This document shows, in pieces, positions 1 through 30,601 of a stretch of DNA of 57,908 bases. The DNA comes from Hyphomonadaceae bacterium (lineage in GTDB: Bacteria; Pseudomonadota; Alphaproteobacteria; Caulobacterales; Aquidulcibacteraceae): the NCBI GenBank assembly GCA_021731815.1, contig JAKFWO010000004.1, positions 1 to 57,908 on the forward strand, in the 5' to 3' direction. Below the pieces are notes generated by a model. That model was not told the origin of the DNA. It worked only from the letters and a program-made list of their open reading frames with translations, and did no database searches. Numbering within the stretch: the stretch's first letter is position 1; the number at the start of each line of letters is the position of its first letter. Both the position numbers and the translations under genes were made by a program.

Positions 1-691
1 CAATGGTCGAGAAATCGGCCGGATGCGTTCCAAAACCCGCCGTGGTCGCTACCGACGATACCGGGCGCGCCGAAAACCGCAGATTCGGGACGTCGAGATA
101 ACGGACACCGAGATCGAAATGCAGGCGACGCGACAATTTCAATCCAACGCCGGCCACGCCCTGCCAGGCAAAGCCGGTATCGGTGTCGTCGAAGCCGTTA
201 AAGGCCTGTCCCGACGCGTTAAACAGATTCTGCACATTGCTGTTGATCCGCGCAATGCCGATCCCACCACCGAGATAGGGCTTGATCGTACCCTTGTGGT
301 TGAAATCCTTGATCAAATTAAACAGTACCGGCACGGCGTGCAAATTGCCATTGGTCCGGACAAACGTGCCCGCGGGCTGGGTTCCGATAAAGTCGCGACC
401 GGGGGTCGTGCCTACGTCAACCCGGTTATGGAACGAGCTCACCGTGGCTTCGGCGCGGATACCCCAGCCAAAGCCATAGCCAATGCCGCCACCATAAATG
501 ACGCCGCCATCGGTGCCAGGCGATTCGTCAAGCTGCCCTGCCACTGCCGGCCGCGGCGGATCGATATCGTGGTCGCCGCCAAAGGTATAGCCGACGTCGA
601 GCCGACCATACCAGCCCTCCTGGGCGACTGCCATTGTTGGAACCGAAACCATGGCCGCCGCAGCGGAGGCCCATACAAGCGCTTTCTTCAT
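1..691 (-). CDS. Outer-membrane beta-barrel protein (C-terminus cut by window edge)
   Basis: An uninterrupted reading frame of 230 codons runs off the left edge, so the C-terminus is missing. The protein starts MKKALVWASAAAAMV and has a clear signal peptide ending near VAQ (about residue 24). The rest alternates aromatic and glycine-rich stretches (GWYGRLDVGYTFGG, YGGGIGYGFGWG, PYLGGGIGIA, FDLGVRYLDV), as in small outer-membrane barrels of the Opa/OmpA-like (OMP_b-brl) type. The start at 691 is preferred over an in-frame ATG at 697 because GAGGGG lies six bases before 691 and directly abuts 697. A structural or adhesin-like surface role is likely; ligand unknown. The gene lies downstream of metC on the same strand with a 210-bp gap, so it probably has its own promoter. 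Confidence 0.85.
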   Translation of the reverse strand, partial: MKKALVWASAAAAMVSVPTMAVAQEGWYGRLDVGYTFGGDHDIDPPRPAVAGQLDESPGTDGGVIYGGGIGYGFGWGIRAEATVSSFHNRVDVGTTPGRDFIGTQPAGTFVRTNGNLHAVPVLFNLIKDFNHKGTIKPYLGGGIGIARINSNVQNLFNASGQAFNGFDDTDTGFAWQGVAGVGLKLSRRLHFDLGVRYLDVPNLRFSARPVSSVATTAGFGTHPADFSTI

Positions 692-903
692 GCCCATCCC
701 CTCAGATGAAATTATTCCCGGACAACCGGACTGCGTTGAGCCCGATTAACCGCGGCCACACCGACACGCGCCCTTCCTATACCGAAAGATTTGCGCTGGC
801 TATTCCCAAGGTGTGACTTTTCGACGACACATGTCAAGAACTTACGGCGATTTCGGGGAAGCCCGGGCTGGATCCACCCGGCAATGGCCGGTTGACGGGC
901 ATT

Positions 904-2130
904 TCAGGAACCCGTCCCATGACCACCCACCTCAGCCGCCCGCGCGGTGAAGGCGGCCTCGAGGTCGGCGACGAGATCGTCGGGATCCTCGAGCCCGACA
1001 TGAAGCCGCACCAGCGGTCCCATACCCCGCCAGGAACCACAGGATCGCGCCATCTCTCCATCCGCCGGAATGGCGAGGCTCTCATAGCCACCCCACGAAA
1101 ACCCATGGCCGAACAGCCGCATCGCCCGATAAAATGCATCGAGCGCCGGGGCAGGGGTGAGTTCCATCTCAAACCCCAGAAGGCCGGTGGCGCCAGTAAA
1201 ATCACGCTTCCAGATTTCATGCCCCGGATCGCCGGGCCATGCGGGATACAATACGCGCAGGACCTCCGGCCGGCCCGCCAGAAATTCCGCGACGATCCGC
1301 GCGCCGGCCTCATGCGCCTTGAGCCGCACCCCCATCGTTCGTAATCCGCGCAGGCAGAGATAGACATCCTCGGGGCCAACCGAGATTCCGAGCAGCCGCG
1401 CTGCCTCCTTGACCCGTGAATCCAGAACCGCACTGCCCGATATGACCGCTCCCATCAAGGCATCGGCATGGCCGACCTGATATTTGGTCGCGGCCTGTAC
1501 CGACAGATCAATGCCATGGTCGAAGGGCCGGAAATAAATTCCCGCGCTCCAGGTATTGTCGAGCAGGCTTATCGCCCCATGGGCCCGCGCGGCCGCCGCA
1601 ATGGCCGGACAATCCTGCATCTCGAAGGTAAGCGATCCCGGGCTCTCCATCACGACGAGCCGCGTATCAGGCTGAAAAAATGCGGCGATCCCCGCCCCGA
1701 TCAGCGGATCATAGAACCGCGCATGCACGCCCAAACGCGGCAGAAAGCGCTCACAAAAGCGCCGGGTCGGCCCATAGACACTGTCGGTGACCAGAATATC
1801 GTCGCCGGCCTCGACCACCGACAGGATGGCGAGGGTGACCGCCGAGAGCCCCGAAGATGTGACCTGCGTCCCCGCGCCGCCCTCGATTTCCGCCAGCGCA
1901 CTCTCGAGCGCCCTTTGGGCCTTGTGCCCGGAGCGGCCATAGGTGGGACCCGCGCGCCCCGAAAACAGATCAGCAGTGGCAGCATGCAGGATGGTCGAGC
2001 CGCGCTCGATGGGCGGATTGACGAGGCCCGACCATTCGCTGGTTGCCCGCCCGGCATGGACCATTTTTGTGGCATTGCGCCAATTCGCCCGCCGGGCGGC
2101 GATGGCCGGGTCCTCGTCGCGCGCACTCAT
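904..2130 (-). CDS. metC: Cystathionine beta-lyase (PLP, Cys/Met metabolism family)
   Basis: This 408-residue fold-type I PLP enzyme probably cleaves cystathionine to homocysteine, pyruvate and ammonia in methionine synthesis, or acts on cysteine. The Schiff-base lysine is K216 in TKYQVGHAD, a context typical of beta-lyase rather than gamma-synthase. LLDNTW (D191) contacts the pyridine nitrogen, and YGRSG near residue 64 is the phosphate-binding tyrosine/arginine pair contributed to the partner subunit. The frame stays open further upstream, but the ATG at 2130 overlaps the stop of the preceding sulfurtransferase gene as ATGA, which argues for translational coupling. It is the last gene of a three-gene sulfur operon. 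Family-level assignment is sure; beta- versus gamma-lyase specificity is inferred. Confidence 0.88.
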   Translation of the reverse strand: MSARDEDPAIAARRANWRNATKMVHAGRATSEWSGLVNPPIERGSTILHAATADLFSGRAGPTYGRSGHKAQRALESALAEIEGGAGTQVTSSGLSAVTLAILSVVEAGDDILVTDSVYGPTRRFCERFLPRLGVHARFYDPLIGAGIAAFFQPDTRLVVMESPGSLTFEMQDCPAIAAAARAHGAISLLDNTWSAGIYFRPFDHGIDLSVQAATKYQVGHADALMGAVISGSAVLDSRVKEAARLLGISVGPEDVYLCLRGLRTMGVRLKAHEAGARIVAEFLAGRPEVLRVLYPAWPGDPGHEIWKRDFTGATGLLGFEMELTPAPALDAFYRAMRLFGHGFSWGGYESLAIPADGEMARSCGSWRGMGPLVRLHVGLEDPDDLVADLEAAFTARAAEVGGHGTGS

Positions 2131-2999
2131 GCGCCGGCTCCCCCGACCGCACCGACCACCGGGTCCGGCCCGGGCTGGCCCCATTCGGCCCAGGATCCGT
2201 CATAGATCGCTGCCCGCCAGTTCCCGAGCTGCGCCAGCGCCAGAGCCACGATCGCGGCTGAAATTCCCGACCCGCAGGTCGCCACCGCGCGCGCCATGGG
2301 ATCGACACCCGCTTCCGAAAGCACTGCCTGCAATTCGGCACGCGGTTTCAGGGTCTGGTCGGGCGCGATCAGGCTCGCATAAGGCAGATTGATGGCATTG
2401 GGCATGTGCCCCGCCCGCAATCCCGGCCGGGGCTCGGGTGCCAGCCCCCAAAAGCGGGCCGCCGGGCGGGCGTCGAGTATCATCTCGCCTCCCGCTTCCA
2501 CGATCGCGCGCATCTGGCTGTGCTCGCGCACGAGGTCAGAGCGCATCACCGGGGTGAACAAGGAATGGTGGCGCAGGATCTCTTCGCCCTCCTCCGCCAG
2601 CCCCCGGCCTTCGCGCCGCCATTTCGGCAGGCCGCCATCGAGGACTTGCACCTCCTCATGCCCCATGGCCCGGAACATCCACCACATACGCGCGGAGGAC
2701 CACATGCCGGTCTGGTCATAGACCACGACGCGCATGCCATCCCCGATACCGAGCCCCTGAACCGCCGTCGCGAACGCTCCCGGCCCCGGCAGCATATGGG
2801 GCAATCCGCGCTGCTGGTCGGAATGGGCGTCGATGTCGAAGAAGCGGGCACCGGGCAAATGGGCGGCCGCAAATCCCGCGCGGGGATCGAGGTCCGAACC
2901 GATCGGCGCAAGACTCGCATCCAGAATCCGCAGATCGGGATCCGCCAGGGCATCTGCAAGCGCGCCCGTGGAAATGAGCGGAGAGGCAGGACGCGTCAT
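2127..2999 (-). CDS. sseA: 3-mercaptopyruvate / thiosulfate sulfurtransferase
   Basis: The protein has two tandem rhodanese domains in 290 residues, the usual length for this family. The C-terminal domain carries the active-site loop CGSGIS with catalytic C242. A CGSG loop is characteristic of 3-mercaptopyruvate sulfurtransferases, whereas rhodaneses usually have CRKG-like loops. The N-terminal domain keeps the fold (VVVYDQTGMWSSARMWW, HEEVQVLDGG) but has no cysteine at the equivalent place, as expected of an inactive domain. The enzyme would move sulfane sulfur from mercaptopyruvate to thiols, making persulfide or H2S. ATGA overlaps join it to cysK upstream and metC downstream, so the three are likely made together. 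No signal peptide is seen, so it is cytoplasmic. Confidence 0.92.
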   Translation of the reverse strand: MTRPASPLISTGALADALADPDLRILDASLAPIGSDLDPRAGFAAAHLPGARFFDIDAHSDQQRGLPHMLPGPGAFATAVQGLGIGDGMRVVVYDQTGMWSSARMWWMFRAMGHEEVQVLDGGLPKWRREGRGLAEEGEEILRHHSLFTPVMRSDLVREHSQMRAIVEAGGEMILDARPAARFWGLAPEPRPGLRAGHMPNAINLPYASLIAPDQTLKPRAELQAVLSEAGVDPMARAVATCGSGISAAIVALALAQLGNWRAAIYDGSWAEWGQPGPDPVVGAVGGAGA

Positions 3000-4018
3000 T
3001 GCGCCGCCTCCAAAGGTTCAGCCAGCCAGTCCGGCACAGGCAGCCCGCGCGCGGCCAGAAATTCCCGGTTGAAGATCTTGCCCTGATAGCGCGCGCCCGG
3101 ATCGCACAGAATGGTGACGATCGTCTTGCCCGGCCCCAGAATGCGTGCGAGCTGCATTGCGCCCGCAATATTGATCCCCGAGGAACCACCCAGACACAGC
3201 CCCTCTTCCGCGATCAGGCCATAGACGATCGACAGGGCTTCGGCATCCGCGATCCGGAAGGCGTGATCGACCACCACCTGTTCGAGATTGGCGGTAACCC
3301 GCGACTGGCCGATGCCCTCCATGATCGAATTGCCGTCTGCGGCCAGAACGCCGGAGCTGTACCAGGAATAAAGGCTCGCCCCGAACGGGTCGGCGATACC
3401 GATGGCGACTTCCTTCTTGCGCGCCTTGAGCGCGTTCGACACCCCGCCCAGGGTGCCGCCCGACCCCACGGCGCAGACAAAGCCATCGACCCGGCCGGCG
3501 GTCTGCTCCCAGATCTCGGGGCCGGTGGTCTCCTCATGGGCGCGCCGGTTGGCGATATTGTCGAACTGATTGGCCCAGAAGGCACCTGCGGGCAGGGTGG
3601 CGTTCAATTCTTCGGCCACCCGTGCGGAAAAGCGGACATAATGATTGGGGCTTGCCGATGGCGCGGGATCGACCTCGATCAGCCTTGCGCCCAGAATGCG
3701 CAGCGCGTCCTTCTTTTCCTCGCTCTGGGTGCGCGGGATGACGATCACCACTTTGTAGCCCAGTGCATTGCCGACCGTCGCAAGCCCGATCCCGGTATTG
3801 CCGGCGGTCCCTTCCACGATGGTGCCGCCGGGCCGCAACTGGCCCCGCGCCTCTCCGTCGCGGATGATGAACAGGGCCGCGCGGTCCTTCACGGACTGGC
3901 CGGGATTCAGGAATTCCGCCTTGCCGAGAATCTCGCAGCCGGTTTCTTCGGAAGCGCGGCGCAGGCGGATGAGCGGCGTGCGCCCGATCGCGTGAACCAC
4001 ATCAGGAAATATGTGCAT
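2996..4018 (-). CDS. cysK: Cysteine synthase A-like PLP enzyme
   Basis: This is a fold-type II PLP enzyme of 340 residues, expected to replace the acetyl group of O-acetylserine with sulfide. The PLP lysine is K44 in NPGQSVKDRAA. The substrate loop reads GTAGNTGIG instead of the common TSGNTGIG, and the phosphate cup is GSGGTLGG. The last third has the GGSSGINIAGA segment of the family. The frame can be extended to a TTG at 4093, but the ATG at 4018 opens directly into the conserved HIFPDVVHAIGRTPLI and has AAGGGCG upstream. The altered substrate loop leaves open a cystathionine beta-synthase-like or related activity. It heads the sulfur operon and is transcribed divergently from the hydrolase at 4252. 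Confidence 0.87.
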   Translation of the reverse strand: MHIFPDVVHAIGRTPLIRLRRASEETGCEILGKAEFLNPGQSVKDRAALFIIRDGEARGQLRPGGTIVEGTAGNTGIGLATVGNALGYKVVIVIPRTQSEEKKDALRILGARLIEVDPAPSASPNHYVRFSARVAEELNATLPAGAFWANQFDNIANRRAHEETTGPEIWEQTAGRVDGFVCAVGSGGTLGGVSNALKARKKEVAIGIADPFGASLYSWYSSGVLAADGNSIMEGIGQSRVTANLEQVVVDHAFRIADAEALSIVYGLIAEEGLCLGGSSGINIAGAMQLARILGPGKTIVTILCDPGARYQGKIFNREFLAARGLPVPDWLAEPLEAAQ

Positions 4019-4053
4019 GAAACTTCGCCCTTGAGTGGGGAGCGAATGTGCCG

Positions 4054-4117
4054 GCGCGCCGGGTGGCGCGCAAATGTCAAGCGCAGTTGTCAAGCCCCGG
4101 TGACCGCCCCGGTGACC
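4054..4117 (-). promoter_or_regulatory. Candidate control region of the cysK-sseA-metC operon
   Basis: Between the divergent cysK and hydrolase genes there are two abutting copies of the 12-mer GCCCCGGTGACC (4094-4105 and 4106-4117). Next, reading on the minus strand, are two TTGACA hexamers 13 bp apart (4093-4088 and 4080-4075), then a six-base inverted repeat CGCGCC/GGCGCG (4054-4069). Tandem 12-mers beside -35-like hexamers would suit an activator or repressor site, but I see no good -10 box at the right distance. The function is inferred from layout only. Confidence 0.35.
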
Positions 4118-4251
4118 GGATTACCGCCGGGCCGCTATCGGACCAATTGCGCTGTTCGCAGGGTGGTGCCAGACTGTGTTCGCGGCCATGGGTTGCACGA
4201 AATGCCCGGTTGGTGGCAGACTGGCCCCGGATATCGACAATCGGGGACGCA

Positions 4252-5331
4252 ATGGGGACGAACAACCAACAGACAAAAGCCGGCGCTCAGCCGACGCGGA
4301 TCGGAATTTCCGTGTTGGTGGCGGGGATGCTCGGGATCGCACTCGCCGCGCTGGGAATCGCATTTTTCATTTTGCGCACACCCGATCTTCCGGCCGATCG
4401 GCTCGAAAAAACCTATGCCGGCGCGCCCTCCCAATTTCTGACCCTGCCCTCGGGGCTGCGTGTTCATGCCCGCATTTCGGGCGCAGACGATGCCCCTGCG
4501 CTGTTATTGCTGCATGGCTCTGCTTCGGCGCTCTTCACCTGGGAGGCCTGGCGCGAAAGATTCTCGGCAACACATCGGGTGATTTCGATCGACCTGCCCG
4601 GCCATGGATTGACCGGACCGGATGCCAAAGCGCGCTATTTTCCCGCCGCCATGGTCGATTTGATCGAGGAATTGCGCCTGGCACTGGGAATAGAGCGCCT
4701 GGCCATTGCCGGCAATTCCATGGGGGGTGAGCTGGCCTGGCGTTATGCCGCGAAATATCCCGACCGCATGACCGCCCTCATCCTGCTCGCTCCAGCGGGA
4801 GCCGAACTGACGCTGAGCGACAGCGAAAAGCGCAAGGGCGCGCGCGGATTCGCGCTGGCGCGGGTGCCAGTGGTCAATCAGCTCGTGCGGTACATCACGC
4901 CCAAAAGCCTCGTCAAACAGGGGCTTCTGGCATCGTTTCATGATGACAGTCTGGTCACGCCGGAAAAAGTGACGCTTTATTGGTCGATGCTGCGGCGCAG
5001 CGGCAATCGCGCCGCCCTGCTGGAGCGCTTCCGCGCCCGTCCGGCCGGCAATTCCGTTGCCTCGGACCGCGCCGAGCAGATGCGGCTGGTGCGGACGCCC
5101 ACGCTCATCATCTGGGGCGAGGAGGATGCCATTCTGCCCGCCCGCATTGCCCCCCAGATTCAGGAGGCGATCCGCGAAAGCCGCCTCGTGCTCATGCCCG
5201 GGACAGGCCATGTGCCCCAGGAAGAGCGCCCGGAGGAAAGCGCGCTCGAAGCCGCCAATTTCCTCGCTTTGTGGCACCGCGAGGCGGAATATCCGGAAGC
5301 GCCAATCGCAAGCGGGGGGCTTGAGCCGTGA
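4252..5331 (+). CDS. Membrane-anchored alpha/beta hydrolase
   Basis: This 359-residue protein has an N-terminal membrane segment at about residues 17-41 followed by an alpha/beta hydrolase domain. The oxyanion loop is LLLHGSAS (residues 85-92). The nucleophile elbow is GNSMGG with S156, the acid is in IIWGEEDAILP and the histidine is in GTGHVPQEE, so the triad is complete. The fold, short cap and motif spacing resemble esterases and C-C hydrolases; the substrate cannot be told. The frame is open from 4048, but the region before 4252 lies in the divergent promoter and reads as low-complexity arginine-rich sequence. The ATG at 4252 precedes a normal anchor and has GGGGA upstream. The active domain probably faces the periplasm, by inference from the anchor. 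Confidence 0.85.
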   Translation: MGTNNQQTKAGAQPTRIGISVLVAGMLGIALAALGIAFFILRTPDLPADRLEKTYAGAPSQFLTLPSGLRVHARISGADDAPALLLLHGSASALFTWEAWRERFSATHRVISIDLPGHGLTGPDAKARYFPAAMVDLIEELRLALGIERLAIAGNSMGGELAWRYAAKYPDRMTALILLAPAGAELTLSDSEKRKGARGFALARVPVVNQLVRYITPKSLVKQGLLASFHDDSLVTPEKVTLYWSMLRRSGNRAALLERFRARPAGNSVASDRAEQMRLVRTPTLIIWGEEDAILPARIAPQIQEAIRESRLVLMPGTGHVPQEERPEESALEAANFLALWHREAEYPEAPIASGGLEP

Positions 5332-5382
5332 GATTTTGCGTCAGGACATCAAAGGAACAAATTTCCGTCGCCCTATCCGCAT

Positions 5383-6789
5383 TCACGCCACCGCTTCGAG
5401 ATCCATGCCATTGGCTGCCGTAACGCGGACATTGACGATCGTTCCGGGCTCCCAATGGGCCTCGCTCTCCACAAATACCGCCCCGTCCACTTCAGGGGCA
5501 TCGGCGGTGGAGCGCGCCTGATAGAAGCTGCCCTCCTCGTCCCAGCCATCGATCATCACCGGGATCTCGCGCCCGACCATGGCCTCGGCCCGCGCCTCCA
5601 TGATCGCAGTCTGGATCTCCATGAAGCGCGCATGGCGCTCGTCCTTGACCTCTTCGGGCACATGACCGGCCAGAGCTGCAGAAGCGGCACCCGCCACATT
5701 TTCATATTTGAACACGCCCGCCCGGTCGATCCTCGCTTCCTCGAGGAAATCGAGCAGCGTTTCGAATTCGCCCTCCCCCTCACCCGGAAAGCCGACGATG
5801 AAGGTCGAGCGGATGGCGAGATCCGGGCAGGTCCGCCGCCACGATGCCAGGCGCTCCAGCACCCGGTCCTGCCGCGCGGGTCGCCGCATGGCGCGCAGGA
5901 CTTCCGGGGCCGCATGCTGAAAGGGGATGTCGAGATAAGGCAGGATCCTGCCCTCGGCCATGAGGTCTATCACTTCATCCACATGCGGATAGGGATAGAC
6001 ATAATGGAGGCGCACCCACACGCCGAGATCGCCCAATTCGCGGCACAGATCATAAAACCGCGCGCGGACGGTTTTGTCCCTGAATTTGCTCTCGGCGAAT
6101 TTGAGGTCGAGGCCATAGGCCGAAGTGTCCTGGCTGATGACCAGAATCTCCTTCACGCCCGCCTTGACCAGGGCCTCGGCCTCCTTGAGCACGGCCGAAG
6201 CCGGGCGCGAGGCCAGATCCCCCCGGATCGAGGGGATGATGCAGAAGCTGCACCGGTTATTGCAGCCCTCGGAGATTTTCAGATACGCGAAATGACGTGG
6301 CGTCAGGCGCACGCCTTCGGGCGGCACCAGATGGACGAAAGGATCATGCAAGGCGGGGGCATGCGCGCGGACCGCTTCCATCACCTGCTCATATTGATGC
6401 GGGCCAGTGATTGCGAGCGTTTTGGGATGGGCGGCGCGGATGAGTTCGGCCTCGGTCCCGAGGCAGCCGGTAACGATCACCCGGCCATTTTCGGCAATGG
6501 CTTCGCCAATCGCTTCGAGGCTCTCGGCCCGCGCACTGTCGAGAAAGCCGCAGGTATTGACCAGCACCAGATCGGCACCGGAATGGTCGGCGGCGAATTC
6601 ATAGCCCTCGGCCCGCAGCCGGCTCAGAATCCGTTCGGAATCGACGAGCGCCTTGGGGCAGCCCAGCGATACCAGCCCGATCCGGGGCGCTTTCGGGCGG
6701 GAAGAGAGACGGGTAGCAGAAGCGGTTTTCGCCACAGAAAAGCTCACGGGACTGGGGGAGAATAAAGACTGGTTCCGGCCTCGCGCCAT
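5383..6789 (-). CDS. rimO: Ribosomal protein uS12 (Asp89) methylthiotransferase
   Basis: RimO is a radical-SAM enzyme with two 4Fe-4S clusters that adds a methylthio group to an aspartate of ribosomal protein S12. The N-terminal UPF0004 domain has its three cluster cysteines in [21 protein letters not shown] and VTGCLG. The radical-SAM motif is CNNRCSFC, and a TRAM domain ends the protein. [11 protein letters not shown] distinguishes RimO from MiaB and MtaB. I place the start at the ATG at 6789; an in-frame GTG at 6846 would add 19 residues. Both starts give a long, basic, poorly conserved leader before the conserved [12 protein letters not shown]. The gene is convergent with the hydrolase and divergent from the cupin gene at 6910. 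Confidence 0.95.
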
Positions 6790-6909
6790 GGGCCGGACGA
6801 TCGGGACGCTGTCGCCACGAAATTGTGACGACGCGCGGAAATTCACAAATCCGGGCCCGGACTTCCGGACCTAACAAATTCCGCGCAAAGAGGTAAGGGA
6901 GAAGGCTGC

Positions 6910-7449
6910 ATGCCTGAACCGCCCAGCGACGGGAAGCCAATTTTTTGCGACATGGAACACATGATGAAGCCGGATGACCATTCAGAATCCGATGGTTCGA
7001 ACGCCGCCGAAGCCCGCCGGATCATCACGCAACTCGGCCTCGGGCCCCATCCCGAGGGCGGCTGGTATCGCCGGACCTGGGCACGCAGCGGCGAAGGGGA
7101 TGCGCGCCCGGCGGCGACCGCGATCCTGTTCCTCCTCGAGGCCGGCCAATCCTCTGCCTGGCATCGGGTCGATGCCGATGAGATCTGGTTCTGGCATGCG
7201 GGCGCGCCGATCGAATTGCGCATCCTCGATGAAACAATGCCGCCCGGACGCCAGGTGCGGCTGGGCCCCGATGTACTCGAAGGGCAATCGCCACAGGAAT
7301 GCGTGCCGGCCGGCCATTGGCAGGCGGCGGCGGCCGGTGCCGGCTACGGGCTGGTCAGCTGCGTCGTGGTCCCCGGCTTTCGCTTTTCGGGCTTTACGCT
7401 CGCCGATGCCGCGGAAATTGCGAGGCTCGACGCGCTGGCGGCGGGATGA
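6910..7449 (+). CDS. Cupin-superfamily protein (DUF985 type)
   Basis: This 179-residue protein has a single cupin barrel of the DUF985/COG3542 kind. The family hallmarks are LGLGPHPEGGWYRRTW, a central SSAWHRVDADEIWFWHAG and the later VSCVVVPGFRFSGF. Histidines and the glutamate in HRVDADEIW could bind a metal. Members have unknown or sugar-related roles; no pathway can be assigned here. The start at 6910 has GGGAGAAGG seven bases upstream; the internal ATGs at 6952, 6961 and 6964 have nothing comparable. The N-terminal 30 residues are polar and probably disordered. It is divergent from rimO across 120 bp. Confidence 0.85.
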   Translation: MPEPPSDGKPIFCDMEHMMKPDDHSESDGSNAAEARRIITQLGLGPHPEGGWYRRTWARSGEGDARPAATAILFLLEAGQSSAWHRVDADEIWFWHAGAPIELRILDETMPPGRQVRLGPDVLEGQSPQECVPAGHWQAAAAGAGYGLVSCVVVPGFRFSGFTLADAAEIARLDALAAG

Positions 7450-7572
7450 ACGATGGCCCCGGTCCGACAATTTTGTCCGGCTTGCGTCAAGCCGATTCCA
7501 GGATGCCCGGTTTGAATGGTTCCATGAAACCCGCAAACCGGGCCGCTTCCTGATGAACAATCGTCAAACGCA

Positions 7573-7953
7573 CTACGCTTGGCGTTGCTGAAAAATCATC
7601 GTGTTTCCACTGGGATCATCGATGTAGATTTCGCGCGATCCCCAGGTCTGGTCGATCGGACCGGCGTGAACCGGCGAGTCTGGCCTGGCCGGTATTGTCA
7701 GGCCACGTGCGAGAAACGAATTGAACAGCCCGTCGACGTCGTCGCACAGAATGATGACTGAGGAAGTCCCGACCCGGGTCCCGCCGTGAACGAGATTGAG
7801 ATGCAATTCCTCGCCGTTGCGCTTCAAACCCGCATAAAAGGGGTGATCCTGAGGCGAAATGAATTCGAGCCCGAAATCCAGCACTCTGGTGTAGAAGGCG
7901 ATTGCCTCGGACAGGTCGCGTACCAGCAAAAGGGGAATAAGCATCTGATCCAT
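7573..7953 (-). CDS. VOC-family (glyoxalase/bleomycin-resistance-like) protein
   Basis: This single VOC module of about 126 residues starts MDQMLIPLLLVRDLSEAIAFYT. Its hallmarks are RDLSEAIAFYTRVLDFGLEF, the middle strand EELHLNLV and the closing REIYIDDPSGNTMIF. The closing strand supplies the usual E/D metal ligand position. Such short proteins act as dimers in resistance, dioxygenase or isomerase roles; the substrate is unknown. The frame continues to 8013, but the extra 20 residues lack VOC similarity, so the ATG at 7953 is preferred. The gene is convergent with the cupin gene. Confidence 0.82.
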   Translation of the reverse strand: MDQMLIPLLLVRDLSEAIAFYTRVLDFGLEFISPQDHPFYAGLKRNGEELHLNLVHGGTRVGTSSVIILCDDVDGLFNSFLARGLTIPARPDSPVHAGPIDQTWGSREIYIDDPSGNTMIFQQRQA

Positions 7954-8168
7954 GGCTGATGTGATCGACACGCAGAATGTGAGAACGCTCCCCCGGTTCG
8001 GCAATTGGCGCAATCGGGAAAACCCTGCTGAAACGCTGAATTTTTGGCGTAGCCTGCCATCAACGACATTCAGATGGCGATCATGATATCCCGGTGTTCA
8101 GTGTTTTCGAACCACGCACACCAGTTTTGGCCCTTCGCGTTCCATACACTTCGCTCTCAATCTGAAAG

Positions 8169-9065
8169 CTAATGCCGGGCGGCCTCGTGTTTGGCTGGCT
8201 TGTGTCCGGCTGGCTTGTGTTCAACTTGCGTGGCTTCCTCGGGCGCGACCGCGCCATGGTCGTCGGGAGCGGCCAGGGAAGCGGCTGGCGGCTCCGCAGA
8301 CGCTGCCGCCGGAACAGACTCGCTTGCCGACTGGATGAAGGGCGCGCTCGCCCGTCGCTCGAAGCGGACCTCAAGGTCGAAAGCGGCCAAAGGCGGGCTT
8401 TCAAGCCGGGTCCCAAAGCGTGCGGTCTCGCCGGGCCCGAGTTCGGCGACCTCGAGCCCGAGGCTCCAGGCATAGACCTCCTTGCCGGCATCATTGCGCA
8501 ATCCCACGCGCACGATCGGTGCCGGGTGCGGCTGGTCGGAGACATTGCGCACGCTGCCGCTGATTACCAGAACGGGAGTGACACCGGAAATCTTCCGCTC
8601 GGCCTTCACATCGGCAAAATCAAGCCCGAAGGCATTGACCGGCGCGCCGATCGCGGCATAGGCCCCCGCTGCTTGCGGCCAGACCGCAACAAGGGGTGCG
8701 CGAAACAGCCAGGCCCCGGCCAGCAGGGTCACACCTGCCACCGCCGTTGCGCTCCAGGCAATGGCGACACCCTTGAATTTTGCCTTGCGGTCTGTCTCTG
8801 CCCGGTTGCGGCGGGCGGCATCATGGCCGGGTGATTGTCCGCCGCCCAGCCCGGCCCGCATCCGCTCGACACTGGTGCGGTTCCATCTCGGCGCATCGGC
8901 CCTCTCTTCGCCAGACCCGTCTCCGTCAGAATTGGGGCCGTCGTCAGCCGAAGCATGGGTCCAGACATGCCCGCAGGCGGCACAGCGAAGACGGCGCGCC
9001 CGGGCACCAACTTCCTCGTCCTCGGCGAAATAGCGGGTGGTGCAAGAGGGGCAGGTCAGGATCAT
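8169..9065 (-). CDS. MJ0042 zinc-ribbon, DUF3426 single-pass membrane protein
   Basis: The protein begins MILTCPSCTTRYF and has a CxxC...CxxC zinc ribbon (C5, C8, C28, C31) of the MJ0042 type. A polar, disordered linker and one membrane segment at about residues 99-122 follow. The remainder is a DUF3426 domain with the typical SGSVRNVSDQPHP and LGPGETARFGTRL strands. The last 45 residues are Ala/Pro/His rich. Its function is unknown; in alphaproteobacteria such genes often sit divergently next to ftsEX. The start at 9065 was chosen because the domain begins exactly there; the upstream extension to 9173 contains an 18-bp tandem repeat. Confidence 0.85.
   Translation of the reverse strand: MILTCPSCTTRYFAEDEEVGARARRLRCAACGHVWTHASADDGPNSDGDGSGEERADAPRWNRTSVERMRAGLGGGQSPGHDAARRNRAETDRKAKFKGVAIAWSATAVAGVTLLAGAWLFRAPLVAVWPQAAGAYAAIGAPVNAFGLDFADVKAERKISGVTPVLVISGSVRNVSDQPHPAPIVRVGLRNDAGKEVYAWSLGLEVAELGPGETARFGTRLESPPLAAFDLEVRFERRASAPFIQSASESVPAAASAEPPAASLAAPDDHGAVAPEEATQVEHKPAGHKPAKHEAARH

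Positions 9066-30524: not shown

Positions 30525-30601
<77 letters not shown>

Follow-up and report, generated by a model that had tools for sequence, protein, structure and literature searches.

Gene order and family membership suggest a housekeeping role for an overlapping cysK, MST, and metC operon in a Hyphomonadaceae bacterium

Three genes for enzymes that handle reduced sulfur overlap one another near the start of a 57,908-nucleotide stretch of DNA (here called the window) from a Hyphomonadaceae bacterium (assembly GCA_021731815.1, contig JAKFWO010000004.1), which raises the question of whether they form a dedicated sulfide- and persulfide-producing module or an ordinary operon of sulfur amino-acid metabolism. 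The features on which the answer depends are as follows.

2996..4018, minus strand: cysteine synthase of the EGTAGNTG clade (5jis type), 340 aa (from the ORF, profile scores, structure match, tree, and loop)
3791..3814, minus strand: codons of the EGTAGNTG loop, residues 69-76, the clade signature (computed from residue numbers and compared with the sequence)
2996..2999, minus strand: ATGA overlap of cysK and MST, with a GGAGGCG stretch immediately 5' of the MST start (from the sequence)
2127..2999, minus strand: 3-mercaptopyruvate sulfurtransferase-type (MST) protein, 290 aa, two rhodanese stretches, loop CGSGISAA (from the ORF, profiles, and 1urh alignment)
2127..2130, minus strand: ATGA overlap of MST and metC, with a GGGGGAG stretch immediately 5' of the metC start (from the sequence)
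904..2130, minus strand: cystathionine beta-lyase (MetC), 408 aa (from the ORF, profiles, and structure match)

All three open reading frames were intact on the minus strand in the order cysK, MST, metC, and neighbors shared 4 bp (ATGA), so the overlapping operon of three sulfur enzymes described in a first-pass annotation of this DNA was borne out, as were the folds it had assigned (Pfam PALP for gene 1, two rhodanese stretches for gene 2, and Cys_Met_Meta_PP for gene 3). The genes are probably cotranscribed, and from their overlaps translational coupling among them is plausible. The same annotation had taken this coupling to suggest equimolar production. Equal output does not follow, because each start has its own purine-rich, Shine-Dalgarno-like stretch on its 5' side (GGAGGCGGCGCAATG for MST, GGGGGAGCCGGCGCATG for metC, and AAGGGCGAAGTTTCATG for cysK), and an ATGA overlap then carries no such implication. 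Divergent from the operon lay a plus-strand ORF (4252-5331) that looked alpha/beta-hydrolase-like by eye.

The product of the first gene was, as previously suspected, not a canonical CysK: it scored 258.1 bits against the 350.95-bit cut-off of the canonical CysK model (TIGR01139), and its loop read TAGNTG, not TSGNTG. It passed the NCBIfam model NF007989, named "cysteine synthase A" (532 versus a cut-off of 387), a result that is not diagnostic because this model also accepts canonical E. coli-type CysK. As a marker of the clade NF007989 was thus rejected, L165 (loop PTSGNTG, grouping with E. coli CysK) being one such protein above the cut-off; the equivalog takes in canonical CysK as well as the EGTAGNTG clade, and its database name does not tell the two apart. 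Residues 69-76 of the window protein were EGTAGNTG, and this loop, together with K44 (in this fold, the presumed catalytic lysine), Q98, and Y127, was kept in every one of 80 one-per-family loci that had been found by protein similarity. Position 127 was Y in 39 and F in 3 of 42 rows from the window's order, and Y in 71 and F in 9 of 80 named loci; the named loci also all carried EGTAGNTG, but they had been fetched by patterns including VEGTAGNT and are not an independent test of the loop. In comparison, the loop was TSGNTG in all canonical CysK and CysM proteins (17/17) and in the solved cystathionine beta-synthase (CBS) chain, and TAGNTG in all bacterial long CBS proteins (11/11), three of which had exactly GTAGNTG. 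Since it is invariant in the clade (80/80), the GTAGNTG loop is, as judged from these alignments, a mark of the clade and no peculiarity of the window protein. It had been put forward as a sign of a nonstandard role, a suggestion that loses its footing with a loop that marks a whole clade including the solved cysteine synthase 5jis.

Phylogenetic analyses gave the same assignment. In a tree of 42 rows, which left out 11 near-duplicate or surplus rows, the window protein grouped with 5jis in a clade of 22 rows (branch support, 97/92), separate from CysK/CysM (10 rows; 99/98) and from the bacterial long CBS (8 rows; 100/100), while the branching among the clade, CysK/CysM, long CBS, and solved CBS, with an outgroup included, was without resolution. 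The row nearest to 5jis was an Ochrobactrum (Brucellaceae) protein. A midpoint-rooted tree of 50 rows, built without the solved CBS, supported the clade (here without 5jis) at 100/99 and placed it with the long CBS on one side of a 100/99 branch. One different fold-II enzyme (L065.2; 28% identity) was excluded from the trees.

That second tree and the TAGNTG loop shared with bacterial CBS raised the possibility that the CysK-like protein is itself of CBS type, making cystathionine from serine and homocysteine, with MetC acting on its product in a short transsulfuration loop. The distribution of the genes points the same way, as the clade cysK was missing from 8 of the 9 genomes of genus code g2, and the two of these that were examined (G063 and G278, loci L158 and L181, both of the window's order) had a long CBS instead. 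The identification was not upheld once the solved CBS and an outgroup were added, since the relation of the three groups was then not settled. Nor does the protein look like a CBS: it is 340 aa long with one Pfam domain only and no CBS-domain pair, and it scored 270 bits against the 510.25-bit cut-off of TIGR01137, although bacterial long CBS proteins miss that cut-off too (0/100 genomes exceeded it). In addition, a CBS feeding a beta-lyase would, by our reasoning, merely regenerate homocysteine. A CBS-type enzyme in this position is accordingly quite unlikely.

The second gene product narrowly missed the MST model NF008557 (247.7 versus 250, or 2.3 bits short), and we therefore call it MST-type; its relatives at L037 and L050 scored 253 and 290. 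It aligned over residues 12-281 with 1urh, named 3-mercaptopyruvate sulfurtransferase, with CGSGISAA opposite CGSGVTAA, and both the CGSG active-site loop and the two rhodanese stretches were present. The third gene product passed TIGR01324, bacterial cystathionine beta-lyase (457.5 bits versus 365.9), and is by this model not the cystathionine gamma-lyase (CSE) that a parallel with mammalian CBS, MST, and CSE would call for. The first member of that parallel was also not found, as the genome had no CBS match at E<=1e-110.

The remainder of the genome appears well supplied for cysteine synthesis, with one CysE above the cut-off at C5:46635-47117, a protein with two neighboring PF01077 matches in one open frame, and a second, canonical CysK (L003; TIGR01139, 426 bits); PF00291 had six matches in all, L005 and L006 among them. 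An O-succinylhomoserine sulfhydrylase was above the cut-off (TIGR01325, 547 bits), so homocysteine may bypass cystathionine. A "cystathionine gamma-synthase family protein" (L118, C12:584-1792; NF005455, 581 bits), named to the family level only, was likewise above the cut-off, and for a further PF01053 enzyme (L120, C3:44471-45592) no listed model was. Both L118 and L120 are Cys/Met-metabolism PLP enzymes and are relevant to the source of cystathionine. By gene content, methionine could be made via direct sulfhydrylation or via cystathionine, and since both routes are possible, the main substrate of MetC is not fixed by that content.

Matches in 289 genomes of the window's class included cysK in 173 (E<=1e-90), MST in 178 (E<=1e-30), and metC in 173 (E<=1e-75). 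Among the listed cysK matches, 80 loci were picked by hand, one per family code of the class, and their neighbors were mapped up to about 9 kb on each side (4 kb for L184). MST lay within 3.5 kb downstream of cysK on the same strand in 61/80 loci, adjoining it (<200 bp) in 33 and with alaX between in 26; metC lay downstream in 32, the contiguous trio was found in 9 (one with a 261-bp gap), and MST, alaX, and metC were all absent in 12; three contigs stopped within 1 kb. Random placement would by simple arithmetic put MST downstream in well under one of the 80, so the linkage of cysK and MST is more than chance. The 80 named loci, being best matches and hence biased towards some groups, gave MST in 29, alaX between in 15, the trio in 7, and none in 30, the trio belonging to Ponticaulis, three Hyphomonas, a Caulobacteraceae, a Caulobacterales, and an unclassified alphaproteobacterium. 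The gene order is thus kept far beyond one clade and is not incidental, and on these comparisons the operon is most likely a compact local version of a class-wide cluster, cysK-(alaX)-sseA-(GNAT, aap-type transporter)-metC.

Several neighbors recurred in these loci. The AlaX-type gene (Pfam tRNA_SAD) is exemplified by L050:11060-11797, and in an Ochrobactrum locus (L114) alaX adjoined cysK. At L077:8349-9932 and in similar rhodobacteral loci, a NUDIX/GGACT gene, presumably trgB-like, and a small gene preceded cysK, and many rhodobacteral loci had an MscS-type channel gene and alaX 3' of cysK (not counted by taxon).

Within the window's order, the clade cysK was present in 89/100 genomes, and the contiguous trio was found in 8 of 43 loci, window included (one locus from each of 40 genomes plus the window, L183, and L184). 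In the window's own family, the roughly 4 kb around cysK held no match to MST, alaX, or metC in any of the 19 other sampled loci. A further sample of 20 family members, whose genomes partly overlapped with the first, had MST adjoining metC (one strand, <=100 bp by coordinates) in 16; of the other four, one had MST and metC on different contigs and three lacked a match to one of them. Most simply, the window keeps an older gene order lost by its sampled relatives; reacquisition could also have brought the trio together. The separate location of cysK in all 19 relatives is what might be expected if cysK, MST, and metC were neighbors by inheritance alone, with no functional coupling. Given the MST-metC adjacency retained in 16 of the 20 sampled family members and the class-wide linkage of cysK to MST, we regard that explanation as very improbable.

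There remains the proposal that the trio is a module dedicated to making H2S and persulfide, a counterpart of mammalian CBS, MST, and CSE. Each of the three enzyme classes is capable of releasing or carrying sulfur from cysteine, and the loop is one that bacterial long CBS proteins share. For E. coli, the excerpt of PMC6401616 lists CysK and MetC as cysteine desulfhydrases and has MST making sulfane sulfur, and that of PMC6599011 describes H2S as mainly MST dependent; the former also cites an earlier study with less H2S in the absence of sseA, and the two together suggest that MST alone may feed H2S. The same excerpt of PMC6401616, however, reports that loss of cysK raised H2S, that loss of metC or sseA left it unchanged in LB, and that desulfhydrase activity was very low in both purified CysK and purified CysM. 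The clade itself includes a solved cysteine synthase, and the lyase is a beta-lyase. Among the ORFs of positions 1-9000, inspected by eye, no sulfide- or persulfide-handling gene was recognized, and at the Rfam gathering threshold no riboswitch or other RNA regulator matched near the operon, the only match being a tRNA at 30525. On balance, the E. coli data would favor cysteine synthesis and sulfur transfer over a dedicated H2S trio. Nothing in the analysis pointed directly to an H2S/persulfide module or to equimolar output; the module reading is not supported, and we consider it improbable.

The operon is conserved and ordinary, made up of three ordinary sulfur amino-acid enzymes. We put at roughly three in four the probability that it is a housekeeping sulfur amino-acid operon, in which cysteine would be synthesized by a CysE-free synthase and its sulfur passed on via MST and MetC. 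The observed gene order, overlaps, family and clade membership, and conservation are the basis for this reading, and the activities are predictions from them. The synthase would add sulfide to O-acetylserine to give cysteine, MST would accept sulfur from 3-mercaptopyruvate, the transamination product of cysteine, and carry it as an enzyme persulfide for use in thiolation or redox protection, and MetC would cleave cystathionine or, as side substrates, compounds such as cysteine. From its residues, the synthase is predicted to have O-acetylserine sulfhydrylase activity free of the CysE complex and probably does not bind CysE, as the Gln and Tyr matching Q98 and Y127 are, in the excerpt of PMC12811640, the residues that keep CysE out in Brucella. 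A more specific version, in which cysteine for sulfur transfer comes from this second, CysE-escaping synthase and reaches MST and MetC without involvement of the cysteine synthase complex, is unlikely; if true, it would mean that across alphaproteobacteria the cysteine used for biosynthesis is kept apart, by a built-in separation, from that used for sulfur transfer. The odd-looking CysK is a member of a second cysteine-synthase clade that is common in Alphaproteobacteria and lies within a conserved sulfur cluster. From the linkage of cysK with alaX, sseA, and metC, cysteine synthesis and sulfur transfer are predicted to be regulated together. Among the article excerpts consulted, none was recognized as describing the whole cysK-alaX-sseA-metC cluster.

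Parts of the operon do resemble known systems. The closest structural counterpart of the synthase is 5jis, named "Cysteine synthase," which belongs to the same clade and has both the EGTAGNTG loop and a Gln and a Tyr at the positions of Q98 and Y127. The structure 5i7w also matches the window protein, and 5jjc was the next match, although its printed chain lacks the Gln and Tyr; we take all three to be Brucella O-acetylserine sulfhydrylase, and 5jjc presumably to be an engineered variant. Structures of the 5jis type are about two-thirds identical to the window synthase. The solved structures most similar to the products of genes 2 and 3 were 1urh (3-mercaptopyruvate sulfurtransferase) and 1cl1/2fq6 (cystathionine beta-lyase), presumably all from E. 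coli, where to our knowledge the corresponding genes are unlinked. The trgABcysK tellurite locus of Rhodobacter sphaeroides, as excerpted in PMC6955997, recalls the many rhodobacteral clade loci with a NUDIX/GGACT gene before cysK, and its trgAB-linked cysK is probably a clade cysK; unlike the rhodobacteral loci, the window cysK has no adjoining NUDIX/GGACT gene. Azospirillum brasilense has a second CysK, CysK-B, with the Brucella-like Gln and Tyr (excerpt of PMC12811640), and CysK-B may belong to the clade, although the conserved loop given there is TSGNT and that of the window is TAGNT. The same excerpt places the CysK-B gene between those for ADP-ribose pyrophosphatase and Ala-tRNA(Pro) hydrolase, whereas the window has MST and metC directly after cysK.
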